51,087 bases of DNA from Clostridiales bacterium (lineage in GTDB: Bacteria; Bacillota; Clostridia; Lachnospirales; Lachnospiraceae). The notes under the pieces are model-generated. The model was given only the letters and a program-made list of their open reading frames with translations, made no database searches and was not told the DNA's origin. The position numbers and the translations under genes were made by a program. The stretch spans positions 1-51,087 of the forward strand of contig JAQXPY010000147.1 of the NCBI GenBank assembly GCA_029100885.1, given 5' to 3'. Shown here piece by piece: positions 46,009 through 50,952 of this stretch; positions within the stretch are counted from its first letter, which is position 1, and every line of letters begins with the position of its first letter.

Positions 46009-47163
46009 TTATTTATGCTGAGCAAACATCCAGTCCCTGAACTCCTGGTTTGCATACATAGGAACCCATGAGAAGTGCGCGGATGTACCGAATACCGTGC
46101 CAGGAGCATAGAGTGTTGACTTATAGTAGATGCCTGCAGCCTTAAGAGCCTCAACTGTAGGGTTGTAATACTCTACGATCTTTACTGTAGGGTCGTCTGC
46201 TGCCTGGAATATCCACATAGGCATACCTCTGAGAGCTTCAACCTTTGCCGGGTCTGCGCCTGCCGCATCCGGAGCTATTGCAGCAAATACTTCAGGATGC
46301 TCGATAGCAAGAGTATATGTTGCGAAGCCGCCTGCCGAAAGGCCTGTCATATAGACTCTGCTTCTGTCTACCGAATACTCATCCATGACCTTAAGAAGAA
46401 GATTATAGGCAGCATCGAGATACTTCATCGGTGCAAATGCGTTTTCAGCCTGACCTGCTCTGTAAGCCATGAGCGTAGTCCAGTTCTCTATATTGGCATC
46501 TGCGACCTTGCACTGAGGTGCAAGTACGATGCACTCGTTCTTTCCTGCCTCTGAATCCTTAGCCCAAACTGTTGCCATCTGGTATCTCTTCAGAACCATA
46601 TCCACAGACTGTGTTCTCTGACCGGATCCGTGAAGCGCAAATACGATAGGATACTTCTTGTTAGGATCGTAGTTTGTCGGAACATAAAGCTCATACGGCA
46701 TTACAACACCGGTTGCCGCATCAACATATTCGCCAGGTGTAAACAGATTGTAAACAGCTGTATCGCAGTCTCTTACAACATTCACCGTATAGGTTGTGGT
46801 CATGCCGTTCTTGGAGGCCGTAACAGTGATCGGCGTCTCAAGCACAATATCATAATTAGGATAGCTTCCGTCGATAGCTACGATCTTGCTCTTGCCGGAC
46901 TCGATTTCCTCTCCGTTGACAGCTATTACTGTTCCCTCAGGTGCCATGGCTGTGACCTTAACTCCGTAGCAGTCGCTCTGAACATTGTAAGTGTAGTCTG
47001 TAACTGACGGAACGAAGGAAATGTTCTTTCCGTCCTGAACAGCTGTAAGAACAGAAAGACCTGTAAGAATAGGAGCTCCGGTGTCAGCAAACGCGGTCTG
47101 TGTCATTCCCAGCAGAAATGCCGCTGTCATAACAAGCGCGACCAGCTTTTTTAGTTTCTTCAT
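46009..47163 (-). CDS. Secreted alpha/beta-hydrolase (esterase/PHB depolymerase-like) with N-terminal Ig-like domain
   Basis: A 384-aa exported hydrolase. The signal peptide is KKLKKLVALVMTAAFLLG followed by TQTAFADT (cleavage near AFA-D). Residues about 30-135 form a beta-rich, Ig/cadherin-like domain seen in some extracellular esterases. The catalytic domain has FALHGSGQR as the oxyanion region, the nucleophile elbow TGLSAGGFATY, an acid in QAADDPTV, and the His in GTSAHFSWV. It resembles COG4099-type predicted peptidases and feruloyl/acetyl esterases; the substrate (plant polysaccharide esters) is inferred. I chose the ATG at 47163 with GGGGGA upstream over the ORF-track start 18 codons earlier. 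Standalone gene between terminators. Confidence 0.85.
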   Translation of the reverse strand: MKKLKKLVALVMTAAFLLGMTQTAFADTGAPILTGLSVLTAVQDGKNISFVPSVTDYTYNVQSDCYGVKVTAMAPEGTVIAVNGEEIESGKSKIVAIDGSYPNYDIVLETPITVTASKNGMTTTYTVNVVRDCDTAVYNLFTPGEYVDAATGVVMPYELYVPTNYDPNKKYPIVFALHGSGQRTQSVDMVLKRYQMATVWAKDSEAGKNECIVLAPQCKVADANIENWTTLMAYRAGQAENAFAPMKYLDAAYNLLLKVMDEYSVDRSRVYMTGLSAGGFATYTLAIEHPEVFAAIAPDAAGADPAKVEALRGMPMWIFQAADDPTVKIVEYYNPTVEALKAAGIYYKSTLYAPGTVFGTSAHFSWVPMYANQEFRDWMFAQHK

Positions 47164-47311
47164 TGAAATTGTCCCCCTTTCGATAATCACGCGCAGTGCA
47201 CTAAGAGAACTGCACATTGCCTAAAGCCAAAGGCTTCACGGTTAAGTCACTGCCGTTTCCTTTAAAATGCAGCGATGCATTAATAATATCAGAATTTTCC
47301 GTCAGATTAAA

Positions 47312-47373: not shown

Positions 47374-48759
47374 TTATAAAACGACTTGTACGGTTCTGAT
47401 ATCGTAATACCTGAAGCAGTCTACAGTTCTCTTTGTAATCCGCTCCCCGCAGACAGCAGCCGGTACTGCAGGCGGACATGACACCTCCGACACCGCCAGT
47501 ATTCTGCCCTCCGACTCTGCCGCAGATATGATCTCGCTTTCTGACAGCATAGCCTCTCCGGGAGACATCACATACTGACCCCGCTCCGGCACCGGCGGTT
47601 TTGGAAAAAACAGAGATCTCTTCGGAATCCTTTCCAGAGTTCTCTCCAGCTTTTCAAAATCATCCGGGCTGTTGAAGGGGGACGGCATCAGAACCAGATA
47701 TCCGGGATCCGCAAACTCACATTCTATTCCGTTTCTGCGAAGCTGCTCCGCCAGCTCGTCTCCCCTGTATCCGTAGGCATTCGCATCAATGGTGAGCTTC
47801 ATAGGCTCGCAGCCCGCAAATCGATAGCCTCTCCGACTCAGCCTGTTTCTGATCCCGCATATCCTTTCAACAGTATCCTTTACAGTATTTCCGAAGCCTT
47901 CCTCCGCCAGACGATTGAAATTATCCAGTGACTGCAGGATAAGATACGAAGGACTTGTGGATGCAAAGACAGACATGGCACTGTCTGCCTTTTCCGCAAA
48001 GTACTCCGGAGCCTGTCCGGAAATATGCAGGTACGCCCCTCCGGTAAGAACCGGCAGAGTCTTATGGGCGGAATCACAGCACATATCAGCCCCGCATTCG
48101 ATAGGATGCATTCCCTTTCCTGCGAACTTCAGATAAGCTCCGTGTGCATTATCGACCAGCAGCAGGCAGCCGTGCCTTCTGCATATCTCAGATATTGCCT
48201 TGATATCAGCTATATTGCCCAGATAATCGGGACTGGTTATATAGACAGCGTCCGGATGCTTCCCGGAAACCGTCCTGTCGATCTCATCAGGTGTCAGGAT
48301 ACACGATACAAGCCCGGGAGTATCTGAATACATCCACTCAATATCTATATTCATTAATGCGGACGCGGTAATAAAGGTCTTATGGACATTTCTTGCAGCC
48401 GCTATCAATGGTCTCCTTCCCGCTCTCACAGCAGCCGACTTCACAAGCCACAGCATTGCCCTGATGCATAGGGATGAGCCCTCTGCAGAATATACTGTCC
48501 TGACTGTTCCAAATACTCTTGCTGCATTTCTTTCGCTTTCCAGTATTATTCCTTCCGGATGATACAGCTCGTCCGCACCCTTGATCTCGGTAATATCAAG
48601 AGCTTCGAGGCTCTCGCTGCCTGAAACAGCCGCTCCCTTATGCCCCGGCATGTGCATTCTGATCGTCCCTGACCTCGAATATCCTTTCGCAAATTCACAG
48701 ACGGGGGCATAGGACTCCGCGAACAGCTCTGCTTCGGACAGGGTTTTCATTTCTTCCAT
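47374..48759 (-). CDS. Orn/Lys/Arg decarboxylase-fold PLP enzyme, short form
   Basis: A 461-aa fold-type I PLP protein of the Orn/Lys/Arg decarboxylase major-domain family. HMPGHKGAA near residue 38, DITEIKGADELYHPEG, the stacking/aldehyde region AEGSSLCIRAML, LLVDNAHGAYLKF, and the PLP Lys in DSAHKTLPVLTGGAYL are all present. At this size it is the short, wing-less version common in Firmicutes, not the 700-aa inducible decarboxylase. It begins at a TGATG junction with the SCIFF maturase; a GTG one codon upstream is also possible. Substrate unknown; lysine or arginine decarboxylation is the family expectation. Confidence 0.88.
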   Translation of the reverse strand: MEEMKTLSEAELFAESYAPVCEFAKGYSRSGTIRMHMPGHKGAAVSGSESLEALDITEIKGADELYHPEGIILESERNAARVFGTVRTVYSAEGSSLCIRAMLWLVKSAAVRAGRRPLIAAARNVHKTFITASALMNIDIEWMYSDTPGLVSCILTPDEIDRTVSGKHPDAVYITSPDYLGNIADIKAISEICRRHGCLLLVDNAHGAYLKFAGKGMHPIECGADMCCDSAHKTLPVLTGGAYLHISGQAPEYFAEKADSAMSVFASTSPSYLILQSLDNFNRLAEEGFGNTVKDTVERICGIRNRLSRRGYRFAGCEPMKLTIDANAYGYRGDELAEQLRRNGIECEFADPGYLVLMPSPFNSPDDFEKLERTLERIPKRSLFFPKPPVPERGQYVMSPGEAMLSESEIISAAESEGRILAVSEVSCPPAVPAAVCGERITKRTVDCFRYYDIRTVQVVL

Positions 48760-50144
48760 CACTTCAGCCCTTCAAGCCTTTTCTTCGCCTCAATGTAGAT
48801 CGCGCATTCCATGCGCTTTCTGAACAGCCTGCAGCCGTTTTCATATATTCCTGTTATGCTTCCTGTCGCATGAAAGGCGTTTGCTGCACAGCCTCCTGAG
48901 CAGTAGAGCTTTGCCCAGCAGTCGGCGCATTCCGGATGCGCATATACATTGCAGTTCTTAAATTCCGACTGAACAGCGGAATTATCGATCCCGTTCCAGA
49001 TGTCTCCGAGCCTGAAATGCTCATCTCCCACGAACTGATGACACGGATAGAGATCTCCCCACGGTGTTACGGCCATATACTCTGTTCCGGATCCGCATCC
49101 CGAGATGCGCTTGTAGATGCACGGTCCTCCGGAAAGGTCTATCATATAGTGGTAAAATGTGAACGGTCTTCCTTCTCTTTCTCTCCTAAGCATCAGCTCG
49201 GCAAGCTGCTCATACTGCTCCGTCACCACAGCCAGATCCTCATCGGTAAGTGCCGAAGGATCATCCGGTGCGCATACCACAGGCTCCATGCTCAGCTCAG
49301 TAAAGCCAAGCTCCAGCATTTTCTCTATGTCCTTCAGAAAATCCGGATTTGCATGGGTAAAGGTACCGCGCATATAATAATTCCTTCCTCCGCGGGCACT
49401 GACCAGCTGCTGAAAGTTCGGAACTATCCTTTCCCAGCTGCCGTTTCCGGCGTAGTCTACGCGGAAACGATCGTGGATCTCTTTTCTGCCGTCCAGGCTA
49501 AGAACCACATTGCTCATCTCACGGTTGGCGAAATCAATGACATCCTCATCTATAAGCATCCCGTTTGTGGTAAGCGTAAATCTGAAGTTCTTGCCTTTTT
49601 CCTTTTCAATGCTTCTGGCATAGGCAACCAGCTGCTTTACCACATCAAAATTCATAAGCGGCTCTCCGCCGAAGAAATCCACCTCCAGATTGTGTCTGGT
49701 TCCGGAGTTTTCTACCAGAAAATCCAGCGCACGCTTTCCTGTTTCGAAACTCATCACCGCCCTGTCGCCGGAATACCTTCCCTGACTTGCAAAGCAGTAG
49801 GAGCAGTTCAGATTACAGGTGTGAGCAACATGAAGGCAAAGAGCCTTGACAACTCCGGATGTACGTTCCTTCAGCACTCCCGCAGCCTCTTCAAAAACAT
49901 CCTCTGAGAAGAGCTTTCCCGTGTCCTTCAGTTCTGCTATCTGCTCATAGCATTCTTCGAGCTCCTCCTTAGTGATCTCCGGATCATCTGCATATTTTAC
50001 AAGCAGCCCGCCGATGAGTTCCTCTTTTCCCTTCTCCTGAAATGCTTCAATAATATCAAAGGCGGCATCATCCACAATATGTATCGAGCCTGAAAAGGTA
50101 TCCGTCACAATATTAAGACCGCCCTGCTTATAGCAATGTACCAT
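48759..50144 (-). CDS. scfB: SCIFF (ranthipeptide) radical SAM maturase
   Basis: A 461-aa radical SAM-SPASM enzyme that installs thioether crosslinks in the SCIFF peptide. The N-terminal RRE-like region (about 1-90, opening MVHCYKQGGLNIVTDTFSG) should bind the leader. The SAM cluster motif is in CNLNCSYCFASQGRYSG (about 109-125), with FFGGEPLMNF following. The SPASM region holds CGSGTEYMAVTPWGDLYPC and the CADCWAKLYCSGGC set for auxiliary clusters. It follows scfA by 115 bp, with a hairpin terminator between. It is co-transcribed with the decarboxylase-like gene. Confidence 0.96.
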   Translation of the reverse strand: MVHCYKQGGLNIVTDTFSGSIHIVDDAAFDIIEAFQEKGKEELIGGLLVKYADDPEITKEELEECYEQIAELKDTGKLFSEDVFEEAAGVLKERTSGVVKALCLHVAHTCNLNCSYCFASQGRYSGDRAVMSFETGKRALDFLVENSGTRHNLEVDFFGGEPLMNFDVVKQLVAYARSIEKEKGKNFRFTLTTNGMLIDEDVIDFANREMSNVVLSLDGRKEIHDRFRVDYAGNGSWERIVPNFQQLVSARGGRNYYMRGTFTHANPDFLKDIEKMLELGFTELSMEPVVCAPDDPSALTDEDLAVVTEQYEQLAELMLRREREGRPFTFYHYMIDLSGGPCIYKRISGCGSGTEYMAVTPWGDLYPCHQFVGDEHFRLGDIWNGIDNSAVQSEFKNCNVYAHPECADCWAKLYCSGGCAANAFHATGSITGIYENGCRLFRKRMECAIYIEAKKRLEGLK

Positions 50145-50212: not shown

Positions 50213-50239
50213 GAAAAATGCCGCCCAAATAGGCGGCAT
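50213..50239 (-). terminator. Terminator/attenuator between scfA and scfB
   Basis: ATGCCGCC (50218-50225) and GGCGGCAT (50232-50239) form an 8-bp stem with a 6-nt loop, followed on the minus strand by TTTTC. It begins about 20 nt after the scfA stop. Partial readthrough would make more peptide mRNA than maturase mRNA. Confidence 0.85.
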
Positions 50240-50259
50240 CTGCACAAGTTTCCTGAAAA

Positions 50260-50412
50260 TTACTGCTGAGCCTCTGCGTTCTCACACTTCTGGTTAGCAA
50301 TACCGCAGCTTGTCTTGCAGGCTGACTGGCATGATGTCTGGCACTCGCCGCATCCACCGTTCTTTGCGCTCTCACAAAGGTTGCGTGTCTCTAATGTCTG
50401 TATATGCTTCAT
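50260..50412 (-). CDS. scfA: SCIFF peptide precursor (ranthipeptide)
   Basis: A 50-aa peptide matching the SCIFF family (six cysteines in forty-five residues): it opens MKHIQTLETRNL and has the core CGECQTSCQSACKTSC, then ANQKCEN. There are seven cysteines (13, 21, 24, 28, 32, 36, 43); Cys13 is extra relative to the family name. Residue 37, after CKTSC, is Gly (GIANQ). In the studied homologue CteA I recall a Cys32-Thr37 thioether, so the usual acceptor appears replaced. The ATG at 50412 has a strong GGAGG; the ORF-track extension of 24 codons is rejected because it would be read through the promoter. Confidence 0.97.
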   Translation of the reverse strand: MKHIQTLETRNLCESAKNGGCGECQTSCQSACKTSCGIANQKCENAEAQQ

Positions 50413-50712: not shown

Positions 50713-50952
50713 ATGATTTTTTACAATATCAAGGATATTGAAGGATTTATGAATGCCGTCAATGACTGTGAGGGAAAGGTTGAACTTCTTACAGATCAGG
50801 GGGATGTTCTCAATCTCAAGTCCAGCTTATGCAAATATGTTGCTCTTGCAAAGCTTGTCGGTGCGCAGAGCGAGATTAAGGATATAAAGGTTAATGTTGA
50901 AAATCCGAATGATGTATGGAAAATTATCAATTACCTTTCAACTGAAAAGTGA
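50713..50952 (+). CDS. Small protein, possibly HPr-like fold, function unknown
   Basis: A 79-aa protein starting MIFYNIKDIEGFMNAVNDC, with AAGGAGG 6 nt upstream of the ATG at 50713. The ORF track starts seven codons earlier without a site. The alternating pattern (a helix, then VELLTDQGDVLNLKSSLCKYVALAKL, then a strand IKDIKVNVENP and a final helix) resembles small HPr-like proteins lacking the active-site His, which I believe occur in Lachnospiraceae, but I cannot confirm the family. It is monocistronic, closed by the terminator at 51029-51061. Confidence 0.75.
   Translation: MIFYNIKDIEGFMNAVNDCEGKVELLTDQGDVLNLKSSLCKYVALAKLVGAQSEIKDIKVNVENPNDVWKIINYLSTEK

Follow-up and report, generated by a model that had tools for sequence, protein, structure and literature searches.

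SCIFF ranthipeptides occur very widely in Clostridia, and a role in quorum sensing has been proposed for them. Which residue of the model peptide accepts the ring, Thr34 or Thr37, is disputed. The stretch of DNA analyzed here (the window; 51,087 nucleotides, contig JAQXPY010000147.1 of a Clostridiales bacterium) carries a SCIFF precursor with Gly at position 37. Such a peptide raises the questions of which ring it can form, whether the substitution belongs to a wider lineage, and with which enzymes it travels.

The precursor gene, scfA, lies on the minus strand at 50260..50412, with its ATG at 50412 and the end of its stop codon at 50260. Its 50-residue translation is MKHIQTLETRNLCESAKNGGCGECQTSCQSACKTSCGIANQKCENAEAQQ. 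Seven cysteines are present, at positions 13, 21, 24, 28, 32, 36 and 43; the last six have the family spacing and Cys13, in the leader, is additional. The original prediction, made from the letters of the window, had read the peptide as a Gly37 type with seven cysteines, Cys13 being outside the usual six, and both the ORF and the cysteine positions agree with that reading. The codons of interest on this strand are Cys13 (TGT, 50374..50376), Cys32, the reported thioether donor (TGC, 50317..50319), the candidate acceptor Thr34 (ACA, 50311..50313) and Gly37 (GGT, 50302..50304). The peptide scores 80.1 bits against TIGR03973 (cut-off 50) and 82.6 bits against PF13165 (cut-off 27). A GGAGG ribosome-binding site is located 5′ of the ATG and a gene for an ScfB-type maturase (TIGR03974, 731.6 bits; cut-off 425) comes next after the ORF. 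These family-model matches, the GGAGG site and the neighboring ScfB together exclude a chance ORF. Upstream of scfA, on the opposite strand (50713-50952, plus), a 79-residue protein without Pfam or NCBIfam matches is encoded.

The maturase gene scfB (48759..50144, minus) encodes a radical SAM/SPASM protein of 461 residues. It carries the CX3CX2C motif at 110-117 (C110, C114, C117) and both the radical SAM and SPASM domains by Pfam, and its alignment with CteB (5wgg, 523.8 bits) spans the two proteins from end to end. Folding of the 58-nt stretch between scfA and scfB gave a minimum free energy of -19 kcal/mol (z -3.2), with a hairpin followed by a short U run at 50215..50242 (minus) that is a possible attenuator. 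This hairpin was not among the predictions of the terminator scan, although folding does show it. Such an element might hold expression of the maturase below that of the precursor.

A third gene on the minus strand, 47374..48762, encodes a PLP-dependent enzyme of the Orn/Lys/Arg decarboxylase fold (PF01276, 100.2 bits; cut-off 27). GTG at 48762 is its mechanical start, from which residues are numbered here; an ATG at 48759 begins inside the stop codon of scfB (TGATG). Further downstream, at 46009-47217 (minus), lies a gene whose product, a putative esterase, includes a cadherin-like domain (PF00756, PF12733).

To place residue 37, 392 genomes of the class were surveyed, 331 of them with a SCIFF. 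The Gly37 pattern matched in 65 genomes, one of which (G413) plainly has no SCIFF there, leaving 64 of the 331 SCIFF genomes, distributed over 25 families and 40 genera. A scan that asked for Gly37 also gave bearers with names, including Faecalibacterium prausnitzii CNCM I 4541, Gemmiger formicilis, Anaerococcus vaginalis, A. porci and Emergencia sp. Of 200 genomes sampled across the phylum, 152 matched a pattern in which residues 33-35 and 37-39 were left free. Gly37 was seen in 3 among the approximately 150 matches listed, the window genome included, and the others had Thr37; Lys33, Thr34 and Ser35 were present in all among the matches listed. Gly37 in most SCIFFs had been named beforehand as the finding that would count against the prediction, and these class and phylum counts show otherwise. 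In the genus of the window, 8 of 25 genomes have a SCIFF and all 8 have Gly37, which together with the 64 of 331 in the class rules out a one-off change or an assembly error. Gly37 is thus a minority state, yet it is bound to a clade and is not rare.

The family model was then run on the genomes missed by the pattern and recovered further SCIFF variants, among them Ser32/Ser37 peptides with an additional Cys46 in three genomes. Four residues were seen at position 37 of SCIFFs: Thr, Gly, Ser and, in a single peptide, Ala. The Ala37 peptide is from genome G232 and could not be placed on the ScfB tree, as ScfB was found neither nearby nor elsewhere in that genome. G232 and G109, both of one family, have SCIFF-like precursors that are possibly orphans, ScfB having not been found in these near-complete genomes. 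Five loci carry SCIFFs with Cys36 replaced by Ile or Leu that retain Cys32, Thr34 and Thr37, and variants with Leu or Ile at 41 also occur among the genomes that failed the pattern. A tandem scfA pair precedes a single scfB at six loci, all of the Gly37 type. One weak match (G347:C162:58922-59023) has an internal TAA, and the 5 kb fetched for it include no ScfB; it resembles a decayed copy or a match by chance.

The maturases were then compared with IQ-TREE. In a tree of 161 maturases, all partners of Gly37 peptides and three partners of Ser32/Ser37 peptides form one clade. In a tree of 81 maturases the Gly and Ser37 clade has bootstrap/SH-aLRT support of 100/99 and the Gly37 group alone 98/91; every bootstrap tree places the Thr37 partners on one side, and residue 37 requires two changes only. 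A cruder FastTree run with all rows gave three changes at residue 37, and 10 Thr37 rows fell within the smallest group holding all Gly37 partners. Scattered recurrent substitution is ruled out by both IQ-TREE runs, FastTree alone hinting at one extra change. Judged from these sequences, Gly37 goes with one maturase lineage that was derived once from Thr37 relatives, and the suspicion that it is a clade-wide variant is borne out. The identities of scfA and scfB and their membership of the Gly37 clade can be regarded as nearly certain from such comparisons. Eighteen ScfB columns mark this clade (e.g. Y333 and L413); given the single origin, they are inseparable from shared ancestry and no catalytic role is claimed for them.

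The locus has moved. The eight maturases of the window genus fall in three separate lineages of Gly37 ScfB, and their grouping as a single clade is rejected (p-AU 1.3e-35). Horizontal spread, also between families, is the simplest account of the patchy distribution in the genus and of the three lineages. With wide flanks, at least one of the ancestral neighbors (secD, yajC, queA, tgt and DUF3792, named by Pfam, and recJ, named by eye) was found at 22 of 43 Thr37 loci vs 0 of 53 Gly37 loci. By this gene order, the Gly37 type no longer resides in the ancestral queA-tgt-yajC-secDF neighborhood.

In its new surroundings the locus has a recurrent neighbor. Among loci with full flanks, a PLP gene of the Orn/Lys/Arg-decarboxylase fold adjoins scfAB on the same strand at 44/57 Gly37 loci (29 downstream and 15 upstream of scfAB), 2/3 Ser37 loci and 0/42 Thr37 loci. 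The Fisher value of 9e-17 for Gly37 vs Thr37 ignores kinship and is descriptive only. In loci with names, gathered separately, the PLP gene was linked in 33 of 44. In the window genus it is present in 7 of 8 SCIFF genomes vs 0 of 17 genomes without SCIFF.

The PLP-binding residues D204, H207, S231, H233 and K234 are invariant in these PLP enzymes, and the window enzyme belongs to the family by these residues and its PF01276 match. The downstream-linked enzymes, that of the window included, group in a single clade (SH-aLRT 100, stem 1.08) that contains no distant unlinked paralogue; the sole member labeled as unlinked, in genome G004, is encoded on the opposite strand at approximately 1.3 kb from scfB. 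Relative to near-fixed residues of the other copies, this downstream clade has N94E, V130F, H210Y, Q241G, Y429C and G432A. The window enzyme has E, Y, G, C and A in place of the motif residues N94, H210, Q241, Y429 and G432, and because these residues are replaced, decarboxylase activity is not claimed for it. The replacements in the downstream clade suggest a changed substrate.

A functional tie of the PLP gene to scfAB is judged somewhat better than an even proposition on this genomic evidence. Alternatively, chance may have placed an ordinary amino-acid decarboxylase beside scfAB, where it moves along as a passenger by linkage; this has an appreciable, though lesser, probability. Thr37 genomes do have PLP paralogues away from scfAB, the upstream-linked copies keep the ordinary motif residues and resemble ordinary family members, and 13 of the 57 Gly37 loci are without an adjoining PLP gene. 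A passenger is harder to reconcile with two arrangements over many families, with retention through repeated transfers and joint loss and gain in one genus, and with a dedicated downstream subfamily bearing near-invariant motif changes. The linked PLP gene is a candidate additional partner for a SCIFF, in its biosynthesis or its function, and this in organisms of the abundance of Faecalibacterium.

The extra leader cysteine follows the same locus type. Cys13 was found in 67 of 157 distinct Gly37 peptides vs 2 of 92 Thr37 peptides in a set enriched for Gly37. Among unique loci it was present in 42/52 with the PLP gene downstream, 0/25 with the gene upstream and 1/22 with none; set against the downstream class, the comparison is 42/52 vs 1/48. 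The features are nested, the downstream PLP gene within Gly37 and Cys13 within the downstream PLP gene. Because Cys13 changes only twice on the tree, its association with the PLP gene is not independently replicated; one or two independent pairs are available and the test by independent pairs is non-significant. Coevolution of Cys13 with the downstream PLP enzyme is reduced to an association on this ground. Six Thr37 loci of one family have a leader Cys17 together with Leu41, an independent seventh cysteine.

Which ring could the window peptide form? The original prediction assumed one characterized homologue, CteA, with a gamma-thioether from Cys32 to Thr37. According to two reviews (PMC8326336, PMC8172795), two have been characterized, Tte1186a and CteA, and a Cys32-Thr37 link is reported for both in vitro. 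The same reviews relate that co-expression of CteA and CteB in E. coli gave CteA with Cys32 joined to Thr34 at the gamma carbon (Hudson et al. 2019), and state the discrepancy to be unexplained. The assignment to Thr37 is contested. As predicted, residue 37 of the window peptide is Gly, and a Thr37 side chain is out of the question as acceptor. The further expectation, that a different ring chemistry must follow, is not supported. Both Cys32 and Thr34 are present in the window peptide, and Thr34 is invariant in 252 of 252 distinct SCIFF peptides from the fetched loci, the Gly37 type included (one scan had asked for Gly37, so that counts in this set are enriched for it and are not frequencies). 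Since Thr34 is invariant, the ring seen for CteA in E. coli is possible for Gly37 peptides. The Gly37 clade also provides a natural test of the dispute, as the side chain of Thr37 is unavailable to any link formed there.

We put the chance of a Cys32-Thr34 ring in the window peptide at about even from the conserved residues. Cys32 may instead not be the donor to Thr34 in this clade, the ring having moved, for example to a link from Cys36 or Cys28 to Thr34, or one ring of an ancestral pair having been lost together with Thr37; this is possible, if doubtful. Outside the Gly/Ser clade, Thr37 is conserved almost as strictly as Thr34, and because it is nearly invariant there it probably has a role, one that suggests itself as beyond what Gly can fill; Gly37 may then mark a lost or moved ring. 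Three loci at the base of the clade encode Ser32/Ser37 SCIFFs (QSASKTSCS..NQ.CEQC) without Cys32 that keep Thr34, Cys36 and an intact ScfB and have an extra Cys46. As these relatives retain Thr34 without Cys32, Thr34 is not conserved solely as the partner of Cys32. Set against a moved or lost ring, Cys32 is kept in all Gly37 peptides and is under constraint there. A sactipeptide-type thioether at the alpha carbon of Gly37, also raised in the original prediction, could be read into the fixation of Gly37 in a clade with its own maturase lineage, but no sequence evidence favors it and it is very improbable, the window maturase being a close ScfB homologue far above the SCIFF maturase cut-off, the bonds reported for characterized SCIFF maturases being at beta or gamma carbons (the same two reviews) and close relatives having Ser37.

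The preferred reading, held at roughly even confidence, is that the window encodes a three-gene ranthipeptide cluster, scfA(Gly37)-scfB-PLP enzyme, in which the Cys32-Thr34 ring is probably kept. ScfB would bind the leader, cleave SAM to a radical and link the Cys32 sulfur to the Thr34 gamma carbon, as reported for CteA in E. coli. Gly37 would take away the alternative acceptor while the ring itself remains. More tentatively, the PLP enzyme may belong to this pathway too, with the peptide itself or a small amine partner as its substrate. SCIFFs have been proposed to serve as signals in Clostridium beijerinckii and C. ljungdahlii (PMC8102284), and the product here may be one as well.

A bolder version, which we consider rather unlikely, is a distinct Gly37 ranthipeptide pathway, where a neofunctionalized PLP enzyme would act on the ScfB-modified peptide or supply an amine for attachment to it, Cys13 serving the PLP step in the sub-clade of the window. 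If so, the product would be chemically unlike thermocellin, and the form would be widespread in gut Clostridia including Faecalibacterium.

The linked PLP gene, the single origin of Gly37 with one maturase clade and the restriction of Cys13 to a sub-clade go beyond what had been predicted. In the portions available of the literature on Faecalibacterium and rumen ranthipeptides and on SCIFFs with decarboxylases, neither Gly37 nor a PLP partner is mentioned, which is a weak negative. Within the same partial coverage, no description was found of the four features together, Gly37, a maturase clade of its own, a locus that is mobile and the PLP partner; prior notice is possible.

Compared with the known systems CteA/CteB (thermocellin) and Tte1186a/Tte1186, the window locus is alike in its cysteine spacing, in Cys32 and Thr34 and in the adjoining radical SAM/SPASM maturase, with the end-to-end alignment of ScfB to CteB. 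It is unlike them in having Gly37 for Thr37, an extra Cys13, a maturase clade of its own, another genomic neighborhood and a PLP gene overlapping the end of scfB. Freyrasin (PapA/PapB) is also made by a ranthipeptide-forming radical SAM/SPASM enzyme; the window ScfB scores 278.6 bits with the PapB model, below the cut-off of 340, and the repeated Cys-X3-Asp motifs described for PapA in the review literature cited above are absent from the window peptide. The best solved relative of the window PLP enzyme is the short Orn/Lys/Arg decarboxylase of S. aureus (PDB 2x3l, E 5.9e-31), with which it has the PF01276 fold and the PLP-binding residues in common. From other copies of this short decarboxylase family it differs in N94E, H210Y, Q241G, Y429C and G432A and in its linkage to scfAB.
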